Origin: Spirochaetota bacterium
GTDB lineage: Bacteria > Spirochaetota > UBA4802 > UBA5550
Assembly (NCBI GenBank): GCA_025457915.1
Contig: JALOTL010000002.1
Location: forward strand, 1-64,000
Reading direction: 5' to 3'
Length of the DNA stretch: 64,000 nt
Numbering within the stretch: position 1 is the first letter of the stretch; every line of letters begins with the position of its first letter. The notes under the pieces are model-generated. The model did no database searches, had not been told where the DNA came from, and saw nothing but the letters and a program-made list of their open reading frames with translations. A program made the position numbers and the translations under genes. Positions 5,033 through 48,461 of the stretch are shown here, piece by piece.

Positions 5033-5298
5033 GGGTATTTCCAAAATCGGACGAATTTGACAAAATGCGCAGCCTTTTGTATTTACAATGTCTTTCATAT
5101 GATATCGTTGTTCTAACCCCGTATTAAAAAACCCTGTAGTAGATGTGAATGCTTGTATTAAGGCTGGGTGTCCTCCTGGTAGAAATCATTCGTGATTGAT
5201 ATCGAATTGATTTCAAACCAAGATGGGTAGTACCTTGTGAGCCTCCGGATCCTTCAGGCTTGACGTTTTACGGATTTATCAGTAAAATAAAAACATAT

Positions 5299-5407
5299 GG
5301 GTGATCACAAAAACTACCGTTTTTGTGCCTACCATAGGGCGCTAGTATTGAAAAAACCAGTTTTTTTATTTGTTTTAAAATGAAAAAGCTGGTTTTTGTG
5401 ACCGCCC
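5299..5407 (-). repeat. MITE-like repeat, copy A
   Basis: This 109-bp noncoding element matches the element at 48085-48193 in inverted orientation along its whole length. The ends form imperfect inverted repeats of consensus GGGYGRTCACAAAAAC. ATAT stands directly on both sides (5295-5298 and 5408-5411), as a 4-bp target duplication would. Inside are two hairpins: a 9-bp CACAAAAAC stem with a 4-nt loop, and an AAAACCAG/CTGGTTTT stem around an A/T-rich loop. The rest of the 5033-5536 gap before clpB holds no convincing gene or sigma-32/CIRCE-like site that I can see. Confidence 0.75.
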
Positions 5408-25778: not shown

Positions 25779-26357
25779 GTGAAAATATTTTCCATATACG
25801 GAAGTCCCAGGGACGACGGTTTTTCATCAGCGCTTCACGATGTTTTCCTGGATTCCCTGGATCCGGGTTTTTTCATAGAAAAAACATCCGTTTACAGTCT
25901 TGCAGTTTCTCCGTGCACCGGCTGCGGTTTCTGCAGGGACAATCCTTCATGCCCCATCGATGACTTGATGAGGCCCGTTTACGGCGGTCTCAGGGACTCC
26001 GACGCGGTCGTCATATCATCGCCGGTTTATTTTTCCTCTGTCCCCGGTCAGCTTAAAAATGTTATTGACCGGTGCCAGGTTTTATGGGAGGAACATATAA
26101 GGCGCGGCGTGCCTTACAGGAAAAAAGCGGGTTTCATCATACTTGCTTCCGGGTCGGATTACGGGAGCGTTTTTAAACCGTCTGTAACCGTGCTCGGTCA
26201 TTTTTTTAAAAGCATAAACTGCGTCCTCGGTCAGTATGACATGATGCTGGTCCCGGGGACGGACGGCATGACCGGCGTCGGCCCGGAATTGATCGGGGAG
26301 GTCCGGTCCCGCGCGGCTGATTTTTCAGGAAGGCTCGCCGCATCAGATAAAAATTGA
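25779..26357 (+). CDS. Iron-sulfur flavoprotein (Isf-like NAD(P)H/FMN reductase)
   Basis: The 192-residue protein starts with GTG 1 nt after the preceding stop. It has a flavodoxin-like FMN-binding fold: IYGSPRDDGFSS (phosphate loop), VVISSPVYFSSVPGQLKNVIDR and LASGSDYGS. The compact cluster motif CX2CX2CX5C at Cys46, 49, 52 and 58 (SPCTGCGFCRDNPSCPID) is the iron-sulfur flavoprotein signature, so it probably holds one [4Fe-4S] cluster plus FMN and shuttles electrons. The donor and acceptor are unknown. It is sandwiched between PIN-TRAM and the malic-enzyme-like gene (12-nt gap), in one operon. Confidence 0.85.
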   Translation: MKIFSIYGSPRDDGFSSALHDVFLDSLDPGFFIEKTSVYSLAVSPCTGCGFCRDNPSCPIDDLMRPVYGGLRDSDAVVISSPVYFSSVPGQLKNVIDRCQVLWEEHIRRGVPYRKKAGFIILASGSDYGSVFKPSVTVLGHFFKSINCVLGQYDMMLVPGTDGMTGVGPELIGEVRSRAADFSGRLAASDKN

Positions 26358-26369
26358 ACCGGTGGCGCA

Positions 26370-27641
26370 ATGAGGCTAATCTTCGAAATCAACATATCGG
26401 TCAAAAAGGGAAGCCTCCCCGACCTCATCCATAAGCTTACCCGCGGCGGCTGCGAGATCCAGAGGCTCGGCCTTACGGAGATGGCCGGCGGTGAAGAAGC
26501 CTATACCATCGAGGCCGTATACCATAAAAGCGAAGGCTTCAACGAATTCATATCCGAAATATCCGCTTCCGACGAAAGGTTCAGGACCATATCCGTAAGG
26601 AACTCCCTGCAGGACAAGATATCCGGCGGCCTGCTGTCTTTTTCATCAAGGCTTCCCCTGGAGAACATGAGCGACTACCTTACCGGATTGATAGGCGGGC
26701 ACGACCTCATCCAGGAAAAGATCAGTGAGGGAAAGGGATCGGAATTCGCCGGGGTCGCGAGAAGCGTGGGGCTCGTGTCCGGGGTAAGGTCCGGCGATGA
26801 ATCGAAGATCAAGGAGATCCTCAGCAGGTATTCCTCGGCCGAAAAGGACTCCGTCCTCATCAACCGCTTCACCGGGCTGAACGCCTTCCCTGTCGTCATC
26901 AGGTGCGACCAGCCGGAGGATTTTCTCAAGCACCTGAAGTCCATTGAAAGCAATTTTTCCGCCGTAAGAATTTTCGACGTCGACGGCGCCGACATGATGA
27001 TGTACGGCCAGATAATGTCCGGGATCAATATCCCGGTGCTCTCGAGGATGCTCGACGACATACCGGTATATCTTCTGGCGCTTGCCGGCAGGGTCGTTTC
27101 AAAGAACAGGCTGATATGGAAGGAACTCACGGCCGGTGTTGTGGGGATCGACGTATCCACGATAAGGACCTCGGTGCTGCTCGCCAAGATGGGGTGCAGG
27201 AGGGTGCTGGGATACGAAAACAACGAAAAATACATGCTCTCCTTCGAAAATTTCGGGGGCCTCGCCACAACGGCTGTGAACATCTTCGAGAACGCCGACA
27301 TAATTTTCCTTTTAAAAAGGAACTTCGACAGGAGCGAGCTTGCGAACCTCAGGCCGGGTCAGTACCTGATAAGCATGTTCGAGCTTGACGACTCCGAATT
27401 GAAGATCATCAAGGACAGGGGAATAAGGGAGGTCATAAGGGGCGACATCGAATCGCTTTCAATGATTTTTCCGGGCGTGCTCATGGGGCTCGTTAAATCC
27501 GGGAAGAGCTCCTTCAATGATTCCATGGTGCTGGGTCTTTCGAAAAAAATAGAGGGGATGCTGGGCGGCCAGTACAGGCTTCCGGACGTTTTCAGCGGCA
27601 TCCATGACGAGATAGCGGAGGCCGTTTCATCTGAAATCTGA
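26370..27641 (+). CDS. Malic-enzyme-like protein, probably catalytically degenerate
   Basis: The 423-residue protein begins with an ACT-like domain (about 1-80: RLIFEINISVKKGSLPDLIHKL). The rest follows the malic-enzyme layout: NRFTGLNAFPVVIRCDQPEDFLKHLKSI resembles the FKEFAGIDAFPI...DPDEIV stretch (given in short pieces NAFPVVIRCDQPEDFL and KHLKSI), SAVRIFDVDGADMMMYGQIM resembles GGINLEDI...CFEIE, and GINIPVLSRMLDDI stands where IPVFHDDQHG is normal. The metal-binding aspartates/glutamates and the glycine-rich NAD(P) loop (normally GAGAAG) are replaced (VVGIDVSTIRTSVLLAKMG). I infer a non-catalytic paralogue, perhaps regulatory through the ACT domain. It overlaps the next gene tail-to-tail by 15 nt. 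Confidence 0.55.
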   Translation: MRLIFEINISVKKGSLPDLIHKLTRGGCEIQRLGLTEMAGGEEAYTIEAVYHKSEGFNEFISEISASDERFRTISVRNSLQDKISGGLLSFSSRLPLENMSDYLTGLIGGHDLIQEKISEGKGSEFAGVARSVGLVSGVRSGDESKIKEILSRYSSAEKDSVLINRFTGLNAFPVVIRCDQPEDFLKHLKSIESNFSAVRIFDVDGADMMMYGQIMSGINIPVLSRMLDDIPVYLLALAGRVVSKNRLIWKELTAGVVGIDVSTIRTSVLLAKMGCRRVLGYENNEKYMLSFENFGGLATTAVNIFENADIIFLLKRNFDRSELANLRPGQYLISMFELDDSELKIIKDRGIREVIRGDIESLSMIFPGVLMGLVKSGKSSFNDSMVLGLSKKIEGMLGGQYRLPDVFSGIHDEIAEAVSSEI

Positions 27642-28424
27642 CGGGCCGAATTTTTCCGTGACTATTATCCACTCCAGGTTCCTGTGCCTGAACAGGCTGT
27701 AGGCCGTTTCGGCCCCGGCATTGTCAAGAAAATACATCACGCCGCTCTCGCCGAGGCCCTTGATGTTCATGCGGCCGAACTGCCCGTATTCCGACTGTAT
27801 CGAGGCGCTGTCCGCCGTGATTTTATACTTTTTATCGAGGCCGATGGCCTCTGATTTTTCCCCCACCGTTTCCCTGAGCCTGGCCATTCCGATCTGGAGC
27901 ACGAAGATCCCGGACGATGCCCCGTTTTCCAGCCGCGAAGAAATAAAGAGGGAATACCCGTCCTCCCTGTCGACCTTCAGAACGTCGCTGTAATAGGCGT
28001 CCCTTCCTGATTCGGTATAGCATTTATAAAGGCCGGAATTCTTGAGCTGCGTCGCCGCGTTTTTTCCGAAGACCCTGTCGTTTTTCATGGTATAGATCAC
28101 CGTGCCGGAGGAGTTCATCAGGATGTAGTCGCAGTACAATCCCCTCGTAACCGAATTTATAAGCCGGGTTATGGCCTCCCTTTCAAGAAGGTAGTATTTT
28201 CTTCCGCCTGAATCCATGCGGTGCAGGTGGGAAAGGTTCTTCACGAGGCCGTGCGAAATTATCACTTTCCCGGCCCTGGCCATGTCGGCCTCGCAGACGG
28301 AGAAAAGCCTTTTAAGCGAGATGGATGCCGGGTCTGCCGATCCGGGCGCCTGTCCGGTCGACATGATATCCGGTCCGGAAGTGCAGGAAATGATCAGTAT
28401 GGATAATAATATGGCTTTCTTCAT
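27627..28424 (-). CDS. Lipoprotein with Cache-like sensor domain
   Basis: The 265-residue protein has a signal peptide with lipobox IISC (Cys14). The mature part has a long helix (SISLKRLFSVCEADMARAG), then PAS/Cache-like beta strands: LYCDYILMNSSGTVIYTM, DRVFGKN, GYSLFISSRLENGASSGIFVLQIG, given here as separate short pieces DYILMNSSGTVIYT and GIFVLQIGMARL. This is the membrane-distal half of many small-molecule sensors, here detached from any signalling domain and anchored as a lipoprotein. The ligand is unknown. GGAG precedes the ATG by 8 nt. Its 3' end overlaps the convergent malic-enzyme-like gene by 15 nt. Confidence 0.65.
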   Translation of the reverse strand: MKKAILLSILIISCTSGPDIMSTGQAPGSADPASISLKRLFSVCEADMARAGKVIISHGLVKNLSHLHRMDSGGRKYYLLEREAITRLINSVTRGLYCDYILMNSSGTVIYTMKNDRVFGKNAATQLKNSGLYKCYTESGRDAYYSDVLKVDREDGYSLFISSRLENGASSGIFVLQIGMARLRETVGEKSEAIGLDKKYKITADSASIQSEYGQFGRMNIKGLGESGVMYFLDNAGAETAYSLFRHRNLEWIIVTEKFGPSDFR

Positions 28425-28648
28425 GTTAATCTCCGGGTTTTCTCTGGTTATATGATCGATAAATTAATAGCGGCGCATTAGAAAATTAGCCGGGGGACGG
28501 CTCCAGATAAAGAGAACCGTAATTATGCTTCAGGATTTTTATGAAAATTATTTCCGGTTTCATTGAAAATATTTGCATTGATTGATTCAGCCGGGGTATA
28601 TATGATATCGATCGATAATAAATTAGAACTAATCAAAGGTTATGTGAA

Positions 28649-29398
28649 ATGAAAAAAGTTATTTTTATAATGTTGTTTTTCGTTTTGACGGTTTTTGAAT
28701 TATCATCATTCGCTATAGGTTTCGGGGGATACGTAAACGGCGGACTGGGCCAGACCATGTGGGGAACAAGCAGGACTTCATCTGAAAAACATATCGGTTT
28801 CGGAGGCATCTTCGACACCAACGTCGGCAGTGATTCATTGTTCAATTACAGATTTTCTTTTTCCGCTGACAAATATGTATCGAAGATCAACCGTAGTGGT
28901 AAAAGAGTGAATTTTCCATTTGAACCGCCGGTTATAATCGTAGAAAATACTTTGAATTCAGGCAGGCTTAAGTTTTACAGGTACGGCATTGAGAATATTT
29001 TTGGGTTTGGTCTGATAAGGACCGATAAAATTCGTTTCTGGGTGGGCCCGGGCCTCGGAATAAATTATTCAGAGATAGAAAGGACGAGAATATTTTCATA
29101 TCAGACCATGCCGAGCGCTTTATATACCTATACCTGGCAGGCTATCCCGGTGCATAAAAGATTTAAAAGTATTACCGTAAATTTTGAATTGGCAATCGGA
29201 TTAAACGTGAATCTGACTGAAATGCTTTCCATATTCTTGCAGACAGGTGCAAGGTACTGTATGATGAATGGAGAAAAGGCTACAAAAATACATCAGCCCT
29301 ATTCCGGCTTCGGCCATGGATACGACTGTTACGCCAGGGCGGGTGTGATTTTCAGGTTCCTTGAGAACAAGAGCGGAAATGAACCTGTCAGTGAATAA
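28649..29398 (+). CDS. Outer-membrane barrel-like protein, family member 1
   Basis: The 249-residue protein has a signal peptide (about 1-22) and amphipathic strands rich in Gly and aromatics. Shared blocks with 31963-32676 and the fragment at 29710-29934 show one paralogous family: GFGGYVNGGLGQ, GGIFDTNVG...FNYRFSFSADKY, NIFGFGLIRTDKIRFWVGPGLGI (given as IFGFGLIRTDKIRFW) and IGLNVNLTEMLSIFLQTGA. Function unknown; a small surface-exposed barrel is likely. A terminator follows at 29457. It reads away from the minus-strand lipoprotein gene upstream. Confidence 0.7.
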   Translation: MKKVIFIMLFFVLTVFELSSFAIGFGGYVNGGLGQTMWGTSRTSSEKHIGFGGIFDTNVGSDSLFNYRFSFSADKYVSKINRSGKRVNFPFEPPVIIVENTLNSGRLKFYRYGIENIFGFGLIRTDKIRFWVGPGLGINYSEIERTRIFSYQTMPSALYTYTWQAIPVHKRFKSITVNFELAIGLNVNLTEMLSIFLQTGARYCMMNGEKATKIHQPYSGFGHGYDCYARAGVIFRFLENKSGNEPVSE

Positions 29399-29456
29399 AA
29401 GAAAGTGGAAACTGAAGATTAAAAAAATTTTTATGATCGACGGAAACGTCCCGATG

Positions 29457-29487
29457 AAAAAACCCCGGCGCAGACCGGGGTTTTTTT
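29457..29487. terminator. Bidirectional intrinsic terminator
   Basis: AAAAAACCCCGG-CGCAGA-CCGGGGTTTTTTT: a 12-bp arm with A- and T-runs. It ends the 28649-29398 transcript, and on the minus strand it lies immediately after the duplicated pcrA tail, where a pcrA terminator would be expected. Confidence 0.92.
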
Positions 29488-29676
29488 ACGGCATTTTTTC
29501 AAGGGGCGTGTATTTTTCGAGGAATGTCTTTTTCCCGCTCGTAAAAGCGATAGTCAGCTTGATGTTGTCGCCCTCGCCCTCTATCCTTTCGATCCTTCCC
29601 GGCCCGTATTTCGGGTGCATCACCCTTTCCTTTACGCTGAACATCGACCCGGTGTCCCTGGGCGCGTCGCCGGACC
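29477..29676 (-). repeat. Direct repeat, copy 1 (pcrA 3' end)
   Basis: About 200 bp nearly identical to 32945-33143 in the same orientation; comparing by eye I find four substitutions and one T-run length change. It covers the last 63 codons and the stop of pcrA plus the edge of its terminator. Confidence 0.95.
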
Positions 29677-29709
29677 GGAATTCCAGGTCCTCCTGTTCCC
29701 GTCCTGCCC
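29486..29709 (-). pseudogene. pcrA: Detached C-terminal fragment of pcrA
   Basis: Read on the minus strand this encodes the same C-terminus as the full pcrA (MFSVKERVMHPKYGPGR ... EKYTPLEKMP) with its stop codon at 29486-29488. The match continues past 29676 for about 16 nt after a 17-nt insertion that breaks the frame, and ends at about 29709, where the sequence switches to a barrel-gene fragment. There is no start codon or ATPase domain, so it is non-functional. Unlike the full gene, this copy is followed directly by a complete terminator. Confidence 0.92.
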
Positions 29710-29934
29710 GTCGGATTGAATTATCACATCTCCGAAACCATGACGCTTCTGTTCCAGTCTGGAGGAATGGTTTTTCTCTCTAAGGGCCCTGCGCACAACA
29801 GCTCGTGCTACGAGGGCGTAAGCGTGGGATATGAATACTACGGCAGGATGGGGATCATGTTCAGGTTCAATGAGACCTGGAGCGATGCGGCGCCTGTAAA
29901 GGACGTGAAAAAAGCCGAAGATGAAGGTGTCTGA
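29710..29934 (+). pseudogene. 3' fragment of a barrel-family gene
   Basis: The frame from 29710 reads VGLNYHISETMTLLFQSGG and continues to ...YYGRMGIMFRFNETW with a charged tail, stopping at 29932-29934. The beginning matches VIGLNYHLTESVSLSFEAA of the barrel protein at 31963-32676 and IGLNVNLTEMLSIFLQTGA of the one at 28649-29398. The first two thirds of the gene and its signal peptide are missing; the breakpoint abuts the duplicated pcrA tail. I call it a truncated third family member. Confidence 0.85.
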
Positions 29935-29982
29935 TGATTGGCCGGCGCATACAGATGATAAAGCCCTGCGTTTGGATTTTCA

Positions 29983-30606
29983 TCATTTTCTCTTGGTCAG
30001 CTCGTCTATTATCGATCTTCTGACCTGTATCATTGTTTTCAGTTCGGCTTCAGTGAATTTAACGAACTGAGGATCAAGTCCCTTCCTGTCTTCTGTAGCA
30101 ATAGTGTTGACCCTTTCGATATTGGCGGCCAGGCCGAGCCGCATGAATTCAAGAAGATCTGTCGGATATTCTTTGAGTTTTTCCTTTTTTTCCGCAAGGC
30201 CCTGCGTTAAATATTTTTCGGCGGGAATGCCCACGGTCTGATACGCGTTGAAATATGAATCGCTGAGTTTCTTCAAGTAATCCTTATATTCCGGACCGGA
30301 AGAGGATTTGACCTCTCTCAATCTCGTCTTAACATCGCTCATCGCCCCGCTTTCTTTCAAGGATGGTTTGTATTCTGGCTTCGTTTCGTTTTGAGGCAAA
30401 AGGCACGGACACCCCCTGTCTATATTATTATAAAAATCCTCCATTTCCATGGCCACGGCCTGTTTTTGTGCCGGCGTGAGCCCCTGTGAGACTGCAAGCC
30501 CGGACAATATATTTTTTGTCCGGCCCGTTGAAGATGCTTCTTCAGAACAACCGGCCGTCAGCAGGAAGGCAACGCCAATAACAACATATAAAACTTTAAA
30601 ACACAT
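29983..30606 (-). CDS. Lipoprotein of the surface operon
   Basis: The 207-residue protein has a signal peptide and a good lipobox (LTAGC, Cys20). The mature part is helical and charged, with a CPC pair (DRGCPCLLPQ, about 75-77) and an amphipathic stretch (YLTQGLAEKKEKLKEYPTD). AGGAGG precedes the ATG. It is the last gene of a minus-strand operon after the barrel protein and the SGNH hydrolase (15-nt gap). The helical tail may assist the secreted hydrolase; no family is recognised. Confidence 0.7.
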   Translation of the reverse strand: MCFKVLYVVIGVAFLLTAGCSEEASSTGRTKNILSGLAVSQGLTPAQKQAVAMEMEDFYNNIDRGCPCLLPQNETKPEYKPSLKESGAMSDVKTRLREVKSSSGPEYKDYLKKLSDSYFNAYQTVGIPAEKYLTQGLAEKKEKLKEYPTDLLEFMRLGLAANIERVNTIATEDRKGLDPQFVKFTEAELKTMIQVRRSIIDELTKRK

Positions 30607-30621
30607 ATAATACCTCCTGTT

Positions 30622-31944
30622 TCAAATCGGAGTGAATGTATAATAGGTGGTATTGATCACGAAAACCCAGTGAAACGGTTCCGCATAGAAAAACGCGTCA
30701 AGGACCGTATTGTATTTTAAAAGATAGCTTCTTTCATTCTCGCAGGTATCAACTGCCGTGACCTTGACTTCGCATGAAGGGACCATGGGGTCCATATTGA
30801 TTTTATAAAGGCCTTCGGTCATCTTTTCCGCGTTCGTCACGTCGAGGATATTGTTCTGGTCAGACACGCTGAAGATGTACGGTATAGGCGGAAGATAGAA
30901 ACCGCATAGCCCCACCCTGGTGATGCTGCCCGATGCCGGTCCTGAAACAGCCGGGGGATTCAATTCCGGCGTTCTGCAAAGGGCCGGGTTTTTCGGAAGC
31001 CATTTCAATGCCCCCAGCTTTTTCGCGATCATCTCCCCCCAGAGGGCGTTGCCGATCGGGGAGAAATGAACTCCATCGCCCGGTATGTAATCAATAGGCT
31101 GACAATTTATATTAAAAATCAACCTGCTAAAATACGTATCATGAGTATGTAAAAGTTCGACTCTGTTTTCAAAAGATGGATTCTTCTTCAATGAAGGAAT
31201 TAGAACGGAACTATATTTTGCATTATAGATAAGGACCATCATTTCAGCGATAAAATTCATCTGTACGTCCCAGTTCCAGTCTTTTTTATCTTTATCTTTA
31301 TATGATAATGCAACAGGTGCAATATCACTTAAAAGAACCTTATTTTGATTGTGACTGTTCAGAATTTTTGGTATGATGAAACTGAGGTTGCCGACCGCCC
31401 AGTCGGACGTGACATGCCCCCAGCAGGAAACGAAACAGAGGGAAACGAGAATGTCGCTCGCGCTTCCGAAAAGCTTGTCCCGCAGTGAGCTGTTCAAAAA
31501 TTTTTTCAAAGCATCAAGTATTCCTGGCATTTTATGTTTACCATTACTATTATCATCTTTATTCATCATGATAGGTAAATATAGATCATTCCCCCCGAGT
31601 GATATAAATGCCACATATGGCTCAACAGGTTCATTTAAAGGAGGATTTATTCTCATATTGTGATAAGTATTAACGAAAGTATCAATGCCTGTAAATGGTG
31701 GCAGAAACATAGGATCCATTCTCCACATGATAGTCGACCAGAACGGCCTGCCTTCATTGAATATTGCTTTCGGAGGGTTGGAAGTGTCTAAAACCGGTAC
31801 TGAAGTAGAAGAATATAAAGCATTTGTTATATATGGACTCTTTAGAAAAAAAGCTCGGCTGTCGCCCATGATAATCAGCGGATCACTTGCATTGGCAATA
31901 TTGTTCGAAATGAATATTATAAACATGAGTAATAATTTTTTCAT
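30622..31944 (-). CDS. Secreted SGNH-type hydrolase
   Basis: The 440-residue protein has a signal peptide (about 1-19, NIANA-S). The SGNH hydrolase blocks are in order: block I IIMGDSRAF with catalytic Ser29, block III ISLGGNDLYLP with the oxyanion Asn, and block V PGDGVHFSPIGN with the Asp-x-x-His pair near 290. A proline-rich linker (PELNPPAVSGPASGS) leads to a cysteine-containing C-terminal domain of about 110 residues. Such enzymes de-esterify or acylate glycans and lipids outside the cell. The gene is A/T-rich compared with the core genes. It lies 18 nt after the barrel gene, which supports joint export or surface display. Confidence 0.8.
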   Translation of the reverse strand: MKKLLLMFIIFISNNIANASDPLIIMGDSRAFFLKSPYITNALYSSTSVPVLDTSNPPKAIFNEGRPFWSTIMWRMDPMFLPPFTGIDTFVNTYHNMRINPPLNEPVEPYVAFISLGGNDLYLPIMMNKDDNSNGKHKMPGILDALKKFLNSSLRDKLFGSASDILVSLCFVSCWGHVTSDWAVGNLSFIIPKILNSHNQNKVLLSDIAPVALSYKDKDKKDWNWDVQMNFIAEMMVLIYNAKYSSVLIPSLKKNPSFENRVELLHTHDTYFSRLIFNINCQPIDYIPGDGVHFSPIGNALWGEMIAKKLGALKWLPKNPALCRTPELNPPAVSGPASGSITRVGLCGFYLPPIPYIFSVSDQNNILDVTNAEKMTEGLYKINMDPMVPSCEVKVTAVDTCENERSYLLKYNTVLDAFFYAEPFHWVFVINTTYYTFTPI

Positions 31945-31962
31945 AACTATCCTCTACAAATA

Positions 31963-32676
31963 TTACGATCCGAGTTTATATATGAAGGAGAAACTTATTT
32001 GACCCGTGTACCCGGCATTATGGATCATTTGTTTTCCTGATAATGGCGCAATATTGAAATAGTAAAAGAAAAAAGGAACTGGATATCCATCCAATATAGC
32101 AAGTCCACCCATCTGACTGAAACCCGTTAAATCGAATTCATAATGCATTATTTTTCTCATAAGATATGATACATCGAAAGCCGCTTCAAAAGACAAACTT
32201 ACCGACTCCGTCAAGTGATAGTTCAATCCGATAACCGGACCAGCCGAGATTGAAAAATAATTGAAGCCCTCTCTGAAACCGGCGGCTATCGCCAACTGGG
32301 GCCCAAACCAAAGCCTGACCGTGTCTGATGAATAAAGTCCGAACCCGAAATTATTATTGGCCTTAATATTATAAGTCGTTAAAAAGTGTTTTTTATTGAT
32401 TACAGATACTCCGCTTGAATAACTAGTATTATCAAACAACCTCTCCCAATATCTATCAACCCCAAGATTCAGCCTGTAATTGAATCCTTCCTTATCGACA
32501 TTGGTATCGTAAAGAAAACCCCCTCCCATCATAGATATGGATGGAAAACCGCCGTAATACTTGTTTGATATGCCGCCTCCTCCAGTGACATACCCGCCTA
32601 AACCGGAAGCGGCCATGCAGTTTATTGCCGTGAAAAACACGAAACCAGCAATCAGAATGACTGTTTCCTTTCTCAT
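31963..32676 (-). CDS. Outer-membrane barrel-like protein, family member 2
   Basis: The 237-residue protein has a signal peptide (about 1-23) and glycine/aromatic-rich strands. It shares GLGGYVTGGGG, GGGFLYDTNV, FNYRLNLGVDRYWE, NNFGFGLYSSDTVRLWFGP and IGLNYHLTESVSLSFEAA with the family member at 28649-29398. AAGGAG precedes the ATG. It heads the minus-strand operon with the SGNH hydrolase and a lipoprotein. Base composition is A/T-rich, unlike pcrA next to it. Confidence 0.72.
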   Translation of the reverse strand: MRKETVILIAGFVFFTAINCMAASGLGGYVTGGGGISNKYYGGFPSISMMGGGFLYDTNVDKEGFNYRLNLGVDRYWERLFDNTSYSSGVSVINKKHFLTTYNIKANNNFGFGLYSSDTVRLWFGPQLAIAAGFREGFNYFSISAGPVIGLNYHLTESVSLSFEAAFDVSYLMRKIMHYEFDLTGFSQMGGLAILDGYPVPFFFYYFNIAPLSGKQMIHNAGYTGQISFSFIYKLGS

Positions 32677-32944
32677 TTGATCTCCTTATTACTTAAGCGT
32701 TGATTTTATTCAAAAAATGACAAAAAATTTATGACATTATAACAGAGTCATCAATATTTGTCAATCGGGCGAATTGACTATGAAAAACCTAATCCTTTTA
32801 GGAAGCGAAACATCAGGGTTTTTGCTGATATCTATAATTGGGGAATTTGTATACATTAGATTATTGATAACCTTTTGTCTGTTGAATATCAGATAAATCA
32901 GGAGCTATGAATTAAATAGCAATGAAAGTATTCGTCGTTGACGC

Positions 32945-33143
32945 GGGGTTTTTTACGGCATTTTTTCGAGCGGCGTGTATTTTTCGAGGAAGGTCTTTTT
33001 CCCGCTCGTAAAAGCGATAGTCAGCTTGATGTTGTCGCCCTCTCCCTCTATCCTTTCGATCCTTCCCGGCCCGTATTTCGGGTGCATCACCCTTTCCTTT
33101 ACGCTGAACATCGACCCGGTGTCCCTGGGCGCGTCGCCGGACC
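32945..33143 (-). repeat. Direct repeat, copy 2 (inside pcrA)
   Basis: The pcrA-resident copy of the direct repeat, about 98% identical to 29477-29676. Here the GGGG and T-run lack the pairing CCCC arm, so no terminator forms after the stop. The 32677-32952 gap has no gene. Confidence 0.95.
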
Positions 33144-35127
33144 TGCTCCCGTCCTGCCCTGAAAAACCGTTTCCGCTGAAGTCGTTCGATGCGTGGAACA
33201 CGGACTCCATGATATTTTCCGGTATCTCCGATATGAACCTCGAAGGCTGCTTGTAGAAAACCCCGGCGTATGACCTCCTGATATCGGCGCTTACCAGGTA
33301 GACCCTCTCCATCGCCCTCGTTATCCCGACGTAGCAGAGCCTCCTCTCCTCCTCGATCCCCTCCTCGGTGTCCACCGACAGCCTGTGCGGGAAGGTGTCT
33401 TCCTCCATGCCGGTCAGGAATACCACCGGGAATTCCAGTCCCTTCGCGTTGTGGACGGTCATCAGGGTCACGCAGTTGTCCCTGTTCTCCGGATCGGTCT
33501 CCGGGTTCTCTTCCGTCGTAAGGAGGGATATGTCCTGTAAAAACTGTTCGAGGGTGGCGTCCCTGTTCGAGTTCTCGTAGTCGTACGCGCCGTTCACCAG
33601 CTCCTCCAGGTTCTCCAGCCTTGATTCGCTCTCGGTCGTGTTTTCGCCCTCGAGCATGGCCCTGTACCCGCTTTCGTTTATCACGTCGTTTACGAACGCG
33701 GAGAGCTTGATTTCCGGTATTTTCCTCGATATCTCCATCGACCTGGAGATTACCTTTACGAACTCATCGATCCCCTTGGGCGGTTTGTCCAGGCTGCCTT
33801 CTGAAATCAGCAGCCATTCCGGCATGTTTTTTTCAGCGGCCGCGGCCCTTATCCTGTCAAGGGTTGTCCTGCCTATCCCCCTTGCCGGAACGTTTATGAT
33901 CCTGAGGAAAGAAACGATGTCCAGCGGGTTCGCTATGAATCGGAGATAGGCTATGATGTCCTTTATTTCCTTCCTGTCGTAGAACTTGAGCCCTCCGACG
34001 ACCCTGTACGGTAAGTTTTCCTTCCGCAAATGGTCCTCGAAGACCCTCGACTGGGCGTTTGTCCTGTAGAACACGGAGAAGTCCCTGTTTTTGAAGCCGT
34101 CGCTCCGCTTCAGTCCGGTTATCGTGTTCACGACATATTCCGCCTCGCCGTATTCATTGTTGGCCCTGCACCATACCACGGGTTCGCCGTCGCCCTTTAC
34201 CGACCTTAGCTCTTTCGGCTTCCTCTTCCCGTTGTTTTTTATCACCGAGGATGCGGCCGTCAGTATTGGTTCTGTGGACCTGTAATTTTCCTCGAGGGTT
34301 ATCACACCGGCATCGGGATAATCGCGCTCGAAATCGAGTATGTTCTTTATATCGGCGCCGCGCCAGGAATATATGGACTGGTCGTCGTCGCCCACCACGC
34401 ATATGTTCCTGCTTCTTTCCGCGAGGAGCTTTGCAATGAGGTACTGCGCGTGGTTCGTGTCCTGGTACTCGTCAATCATGAAATGCGACCACATCCTCTG
34501 CATGGTCTCCCTGGCCCTGGAGTCCGTTTTCAGGAGCTGTACCGCCTTGATCAGAAGGTCGTTGAAGTCCAGCGCGTTGAGCGATGCCATCCTTGAATGG
34601 TATTCCCTGTATACCTCCGGGAAATTGAAGGAGAAATAATCAGGGAGGAGCCTGGCCGGGTCCCCGCCGTCTATGAGCTCCGCCCTGTCCTTGATTTCTG
34701 AAATTTTGGATGCGATCATCGACAGACTTATCTTTTTCGGGTCGAGCCTCATGGAGAGCAGCACCTCCTTGATGACGGTCTGCTGGTCGGTGTCGTCATA
34801 AATGGAAAAATACCTCGGTATGCCTATGCCCTGGCCGAAATTCCTCAACATGTAAACTGAAGCGGCGTGGAACGTCTTGATGAAAACGCTGTTCCCCTCC
34901 GGCCCTACAAGGTCGATCACCCGTTTTTTCATTTCTCCCGCGGCCTTGTTCGTAAAGGTCACCGCGAAGATGCTGAAGGGCGGCACTTTTTTTTCCCCGA
35001 TAAGATAGGCCGTCCTGTACGTGATGACCCTCGTCTTTCCCGAGCCCGCGCCGGCGAAAACGAGGAGCGGCCCGTCCGTGGCGAGCACCGCTTTTTTCTG
35101 GTTTTCGTTTAATTTATTGAAATCCAT
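32953..35127 (-). CDS. pcrA: PcrA/UvrD-type DNA helicase
   Basis: The 724-residue superfamily 1A helicase has Walker A GAGSGKT near residue 27, the TFTNKAAGEMKKR motif Ia, DEYQDTN with VVGDDDQSIYSWRGAD (motifs II/III), ENYRSTEPIL (IV), and VTLMTVHNAKGLEFPVVF with ERRLCYVGITRAME (V/VI). The C-terminal domain ends in a Tudor-like barrel (KERVMHPKYGPGRIERIEG, given as VMHPKYGPGRI) typical of PcrA that binds RNA polymerase. It moves 3' to 5' on DNA in repair and conflict resolution. ATG 35127 is chosen because homology begins at MDFNKLNENQ; an upstream in-frame start at 35175 would add 16 unrelated residues. Its last 63 codons are duplicated at 29.5 kb. Confidence 0.95.
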   Translation of the reverse strand: MDFNKLNENQKKAVLATDGPLLVFAGAGSGKTRVITYRTAYLIGEKKVPPFSIFAVTFTNKAAGEMKKRVIDLVGPEGNSVFIKTFHAASVYMLRNFGQGIGIPRYFSIYDDTDQQTVIKEVLLSMRLDPKKISLSMIASKISEIKDRAELIDGGDPARLLPDYFSFNFPEVYREYHSRMASLNALDFNDLLIKAVQLLKTDSRARETMQRMWSHFMIDEYQDTNHAQYLIAKLLAERSRNICVVGDDDQSIYSWRGADIKNILDFERDYPDAGVITLEENYRSTEPILTAASSVIKNNGKRKPKELRSVKGDGEPVVWCRANNEYGEAEYVVNTITGLKRSDGFKNRDFSVFYRTNAQSRVFEDHLRKENLPYRVVGGLKFYDRKEIKDIIAYLRFIANPLDIVSFLRIINVPARGIGRTTLDRIRAAAAEKNMPEWLLISEGSLDKPPKGIDEFVKVISRSMEISRKIPEIKLSAFVNDVINESGYRAMLEGENTTESESRLENLEELVNGAYDYENSNRDATLEQFLQDISLLTTEENPETDPENRDNCVTLMTVHNAKGLEFPVVFLTGMEEDTFPHRLSVDTEEGIEEERRLCYVGITRAMERVYLVSADIRRSYAGVFYKQPSRFISEIPENIMESVFHASNDFSGNGFSGQDGSRSGDAPRDTGSMFSVKERVMHPKYGPGRIERIEGEGDNIKLTIAFTSGKKTFLEKYTPLEKMP

Positions 35128-48084: not shown

Positions 48085-48193
48085 CGGCGGTCACAAAAAC
48101 CAGTTTTTCATTTTTAAAACAAATAAATAAACTGGTTTTTTCAATACAAGCGCCCTATGGCAGGCACAAAAACGATAGTTTTTGTGATCAGCC
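48085..48193 (+). repeat. MITE-like repeat, copy B
   Basis: The 109-bp partner of 5299-5407, in the opposite orientation, with the same two hairpins. ATTA stands on both sides (48081-48084 and 48194-48197). The right ATTA also begins a separate hairpin (48194-48232), so its reading as a target duplication is weaker here. The rest of 47975-48461 before glyS holds no convincing gene. Confidence 0.75.
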
Positions 48194-48461
48194 ATTAGAT
48201 TTTTTCAGCGGTTTGATAATGAAAAATCTAATTTATAGAGGTGCCCATAAACGACCGGTTAAAAGACTGGAGGAATGTGTCGTTTGAAATATCATCCGGC
48301 TTCAGTGCGATTTAATATCCGGGCTTTCCGGATGATGAGCCGGTTCCCGCATGCGGTGCGAAAAAATTTAATTGACTCTCCAAACTCCATGATTGTTATT
48401 AAACCAGAGCCGGGCGGCGAGAATGCCGTCCCTGCAACATCAATCCGTAATGGAGCCTTAT

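Follow-up and report, generated by a model that had tools for sequence, protein, structure and literature searches.

Three described systems come closest to the locus reported here. Homology-facilitated illegitimate recombination (HFIR) was described in S. pneumoniae, A. baylyi, P. stutzeri and E. coli; one end of the incoming DNA is homologous and the other illegitimate, and foreign DNA is trapped beside a resident gene (PMC3240628). In the T6SS clusters of V. cholerae, new modules for surface or secreted proteins are anchored in a conserved gene and leave displaced 3′ ends downstream, for which the authors give the same kind of explanation as is proposed below (PMC5361080). At the icd gene, prophage e14 is bordered by the intact gene at one edge and by the displaced 3′ end, a duplicated icd′ fragment of 163 bp, at the other (PMC6379469).

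The window, that is, the whole stretch of 64,000 nucleotides analysed, was found to contain a comparable arrangement at the pcrA gene of an uncultured spirochaete. The 3′ end of pcrA was doubled at both edges of a block of 3.3 kb and the gene itself was intact, as in e14 at icd; e14 is a prophage, whereas the block was found to contain neither integrase nor phage genes. Unlike the T6SS clusters, the anchor is a housekeeping helicase gene and the modules are barrel-SGNH-lipoprotein operons in place of effector-immunity pairs. The process is read here from its scar, whereas HFIR has been observed, and the resident sequence was kept as a repeat, whereas the classic HFIR product contains a deletion (PMC3240628). 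The features of the locus are collected in Table 1.

Table 1. Features found in and around the interval downstream of pcrA (positions of the window; a dot marks a feature read on both strands)
Feature	Position	Strand	Basis or remark
Conserved lipoprotein gene, in the ancestral order next to pcrA on its downstream side	27627..28424	-	orthologue directly after pcrA in 8/16 family genomes; no Pfam family
barrelA, outer-membrane barrel-like gene, apparently a lineage-specific insertion between lipoprotein gene and pcrA	28649..29398	+	homologous to other full-length barrels of its own genome
Bidirectional intrinsic terminator, most probably pcrA's old one	29455..29488	.	14-pair stem; -23.5 kcal/mol, z -3.4
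Relic pcrA 3′ end	29477..29709	-	last 64 codons protein-identical, then 17 bp extra and linker; 97.5% to 32945-33143
Headless barrel gene, coding for the C-terminal portion of a barrelA-type protein	29704..29934	+	tblastn to barrelA residues 181-248, 33%; profile match E 4e-5
Operon lipoprotein	29983..30606	-	CPCL motif conserved, AELKxxIQxRxxIIDE at the C-terminus; alignment of window copy and 3 paralogues
Putative secreted SGNH/GDSL-like hydrolase, Ig-like C-terminus	30622..31944	-	5 paralogues agree fully in the GDSRA, SLGGND and DGxHF blocks
barrelC, first operon gene	31963..32676	-	54% to C19 paralogue
Predicted operon promoter, TTGACA-17-TATAAT (12/12), flanking inverted repeat TGACAAA/TTTGTCA	32719..32791	-	common to three other operons
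Right copy, 3′ end of intact pcrA, without terminator arm	32945..33160	-	extended alignment and folding
pcrA (UvrD/PcrA helicase), intact, 724 aa	32953..35127	-	Pfam UvrD-helicase, UvrD_C, PcrA_UvrD_tudor

The repeated pcrA tail, its terminator and the block

The two copies of the pcrA tail were found at 29477-29676 and 32945-33143 in the same orientation (97.5% identity over 199 bp, E 2e-92, self-blastn of the window, in which the left copy began at 29478). The near-identical repeat of about 200 bp claimed in the preliminary description was thus recovered, and its edges could be extended, since local gapped alignment carried the homology to 29709 and 33160, respectively. A 17-bp block (29676-29692) was present in the left copy only, followed by the presence of 18 bp more homology up to these ends. 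The block is part of an imperfect palindrome (GGACCGGAATTCCAGGTCC), and its length is not a multiple of three. The pair was the sole direct repeat of such size found in the window by self-blastn, and a search of the 3.66-Mb genome with the pcrA-tail sequence returned these two sites only, together with an unrelated match of 27 bp.

On the low side the homology was found to stop 8-12 bp 3′ of the pcrA stop codon, within the terminator. The high-side edge of the left copy was an abrupt junction at about 29704-29710, where both pcrA and a barrel gene were cut and the pcrA linker abuts the middle of the barrel gene, two unrelated stretches that share hardly any homology. The right-hand side of the block continued smoothly into the intact pcrA. 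The copies differed at 4 of the 189 aligned coding nucleotides; all four differences were third-position and synonymous, and the encoded protein was the same. For drift in the relic alone, this all-synonymous pattern had a probability of 0.003-0.006; for change in both copies following a duplication it was 0.016-0.037, depending on the transition bias. These low values, with all differences synonymous, suggest that the two copies diverged as two functional pcrA alleles, although four substitutions are few.

The left copy was found to contain a perfect terminator on the pcrA strand (29455-29488, -23.5 kcal/mol, z -3.4), whereas the equivalent place at the right copy contained no such fold (-5.5 kcal/mol, z -0.1). 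Folding therefore agrees with the earlier statement that a full terminator stands at the 29.5-kb copy and that its pairing arm is absent at the intact pcrA, and most probably pcrA of this lineage formerly ended at the left copy with its terminator, as had been suggested. The terminator closes barrelA on the plus strand today. The barrel-SGNH-lipoprotein operon on the minus strand probably inherits it and ends there, because it is the next strong terminator on the operon strand.

The block contained the two components that had been ascribed to it, a truncated barrel gene (29704-29934) and the barrel-SGNH-lipoprotein operon (29983-32676). The headless barrel gene was fused in frame behind the antisense of the pcrA tail and was without a signal peptide; it shares the orientation of barrelA, and sits at the far-left end of the operon-bearing cassette. 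barrelA itself matched OMP_b-brl below the Pfam cut-off. The ORFs of the block were the barrel fragment, the lipoprotein, the SGNH gene and the barrel, with no integrase among them, as had been noted, and the ORF list contained no phage or plasmid gene; no transposase was found in the block and no tRNA near it. The block had also been called A/T-rich, which holds in part only: G+C was 0.34-0.42 at 28.5-29.5 kb and at 31-33 kb but 0.53 over 29.5-30.0 kb.

The interval downstream of pcrA in related genomes

The downstream side of pcrA was read in 16 genomes of the family, none of them of the same genus, for which a search found no other genome. In 8 of the 16, the orthologue of the lipoprotein gene at 27627-28424 directly follows pcrA on the same strand with a gap of 0-249 bp; nearly all of these eight contained the gene at 26370 next, and most then those at 25779, 24776, 24185 and 21745, so that the order of the window was kept. 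In four others, 1.05, 3.6, 6.7 and 10 kb of other, unrelated genes were found between pcrA and the lipoprotein gene, one genome had lost the lipoprotein gene, and three were without a located neighbour. The pcrA-lipoprotein interval thus appears to be a variable site across the family. The inserts 3′ of pcrA at L071, L078, L082 and L084 were found to contain a barrel-like gene; GGDEF-like and other genes; acyl-CoA-dehydrogenase-like genes; and ankyrin-repeat and other surface-type genes. The barrel-like gene that genome G002 has at this site was considered as a counterpart of barrelA and set aside, as it had no detectable homology to barrelA.

barrelA was absent from the pcrA-lipoprotein site in relatives, and no second pcrA tail was found in 19 relatives (the 16 and three more of the same order). 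Since relatives have pcrA directly followed by the lipoprotein gene, without barrelA, the whole interval 28425-32952, barrelA included, appears to be a lineage-specific addition, of which the 3.3-kb block would be the later part only. In the short-gap relatives no comparable terminator was found, by eye, between pcrA and its neighbour; the terminator therefore arrived with the barrelA step or after it.

These comparisons bear on the preliminary description, which proposed insertion of the 3.3-kb block and looked to relatives for a shared arrangement or a simpler form. The doubled pcrA tail was shared by none of the 19 relatives, and a simpler order was found in 8 of the 16. The proposal is right in that DNA was inserted which relatives lack, but the addition it described was too small and its mechanism incomplete. 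The simpler form it expected, pcrA next to the terminator, was not the one found in relatives, where pcrA instead lies beside the lipoprotein gene and both barrelA and a strong terminator are missing.

The origin of the doubled gene end

From the anatomy, the ancestral order and the substitution pattern we infer, as a moderately probable reading, that two allelic haplotypes were joined once, by illegitimate recombination on one side and homologous recombination in or beyond pcrA on the other. Haplotype one would have contained the lipoprotein gene, barrelA, the terminator and pcrA, and haplotype two a barrelA-type gene followed by the lipoprotein-SGNH-barrel operon and pcrA. On the right, homologous recombination in pcrA or beyond it would have brought in DNA of haplotype two, whose barrel gene would, on the left, have become fused with the resident pcrA tail near 29704-29710 by an illegitimate join. 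The last 216-233 bp of the resident pcrA would have stayed behind with the terminator, and the incoming pcrA, without a terminator of its own, would have become the intact gene of today.

One join of these haplotypes yields exactly the present gene order. Such a join would be a case of HFIR (PMC3240628), and the displaced 3′ ends kept in V. cholerae effector arrays (PMC5361080) are a further precedent for the mechanism. The low edge of the repeat would fall at the gene end because alleles with different downstream DNA lose homology there, and an abrupt high edge inside both pcrA and the barrel gene is what an illegitimate join is expected to leave. The headless barrel fits an allele of barrelA, since it has the same orientation and occupies the place expected of barrelA in the alternative haplotype. 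Recombination among the sister operons, seen in their shared promoter and leader (below), also counts for this hybrid of homologous and illegitimate recombination. Against it stands the 17-bp indel, whose length cannot be divided by three; the left allele would have needed a second change to be functional, unless the indel post-dates the event. Neither parental haplotype was found among the genomes in collections. The site makes a neat instance of a type of event already described, not of a new type of element.

Direct repeats would also flank the block if, in a single cell, staggered-break repair or template switching had inserted the 3.3 kb and thereby duplicated some 200 bp of target, the copies drifting afterwards; the extra 17 bp on the left form a partial palindrome (GGACC-GGAATTCC-A-GGTCC), a trait that errors of template switching may show. 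All-synonymous differences are, however, improbable for a drifting dead copy, a repeat that ends right at the gene end needs a coincidence, and both boundaries lie where a swap of alleles puts them, so that simple insertion with target duplication, as first supposed, fits poorly and is unlikely. Composite or IS transposition would have left a short target duplication and a transposase or IS at the edges, whereas the repeat is about 200 bp long and no transposase was found in the block. The topology would be the same if the block were what remains of an integrative element with the pcrA 3′ end as its attachment site and a copy of that end of its own, as e14 has at icd, the integrase part having been lost later: element-borne codons would complete the gene, whose former 3′ end would come to lie at the far edge, and synonymous differences between the copies would likewise be expected. 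Such a relic is nevertheless improbable: the block has no recombinase, phage or plasmid genes and meets the repeat with a truncated barrel gene of host type, searches of phage, plasmid and viral collections returned no relative of the SGNH gene, and at the three sister operons no flanking direct repeats were found.

The structure might, further, have been made by an assembler that merged the haplotypes of two strains from a mixed population. With its 50 contigs, the genome is an assembly of metagenome type, and joining two strain paths would give just such a structure; but the contig is continuous over 249 kb, the overlap at the junction is about 7-15 bp, below usual assembly k-mers, and no leftover contig with alternative alleles was found, which makes a chimera doubtful. 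Hybrid recombination between two haplotypes explains the locus better than target-site duplication or an integrase-made island because of the synonymous differences, the repeat end at the stop codon and the double-cut junction.

Recombination between the two pcrA tails would delete 3467 bp, leave the PcrA protein unchanged and regain the native terminator, as checked on the sequence, and the block would therefore be losable in one step. If the locus arose by hybrid recombination, it shows how surface-protein operons can enter beside a housekeeping gene without an integrase, the gene remaining unbroken and a readable scar being left.

The operon and its sister operons

The barrelC-SGNH-lipoprotein operon, on the same strand as the intact pcrA, is presumably driven by its own promoter, for which a perfect TTGACA-17-TATAAT was predicted at 32764-32736 on the minus strand. 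The genome was found to contain four such operons, that of the window (contig C44) and those at C19:4-7 kb, C19:37-39.6 kb and C35:3-6 kb, together with a divergent SGNH-lipoprotein pair at C19:193-195 kb. A promoter pattern of 44 bp had exactly four occurrences in the genome, one per operon, which suggests a common regulator or a homogenised leader. The pattern, of sigma-70 type and flanked by TGACAAA/TTTGTCA, was located at 32719-32762 on the minus strand of the window and at G000 C19:6952-6995, C19:36801-36844 and C35:3198-3240.

Promoter and leader together (354 bp, 32438-32791) were 90% identical to G000 C19:6671-7024, whereas flanks and bodies were mostly about 35-60% identical. Between the operons of C44 and C19:4-7 kb, 22 of 25 four-fold sites were identical in the leader and 35 of 99 elsewhere (P 2e-6). 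The block looks like the product of gene conversion, and the four-fold sites point to recombination among operons and not to selection on the leader alone.

The SGNH family was found in 5 of the 46 genomes of the order, that of the window included, and is thus nearly private; in G020 and G012 it again adjoins the lipoprotein family, as read from the sequences. The wider barrel family is common in several genera. The product of 30622-31944 is a putative SGNH hydrolase on account of its GDS, GxND (GGND) and DGxHF (DxxH) blocks, invariant in five paralogues; Pfam and fold evidence was weak, with GDSL_2 matched only below the cut-off and for two SGNH paralogues, and a protein model of pLDDT 56 whose best SGNH fold match (2hsj, probability 0.72, E 0.27) was too poor for a fold call.

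The operon family, apparently undescribed and nearly genus-private, with a promoter and leader that seem shared and recombined, is a candidate for surface variation in uncultured spirochaetes. It might even be imagined, with little confidence, that strains exchange surface-protein operons at the interval, which would act as a cassette site with the pcrA tail as homology anchor, that recombination between the repeats removes the operon and restores pcrA with its own terminator, and that sister operons exchange promoter and leader, the whole forming a surface-variation system in this family.

Two smaller observations were made. The lipoprotein gene of the operon at C19:37-39.6 kb was split by a frameshift (L091:5390-6093). 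The window was also found to contain an inverted pair of 119-bp elements at 5289-5406 and 48086-48203, 92% identical and with terminal inverted repeats (GATCACAAAAAC...GTTTTTGTGACC), which look like a small non-coding mobile element.
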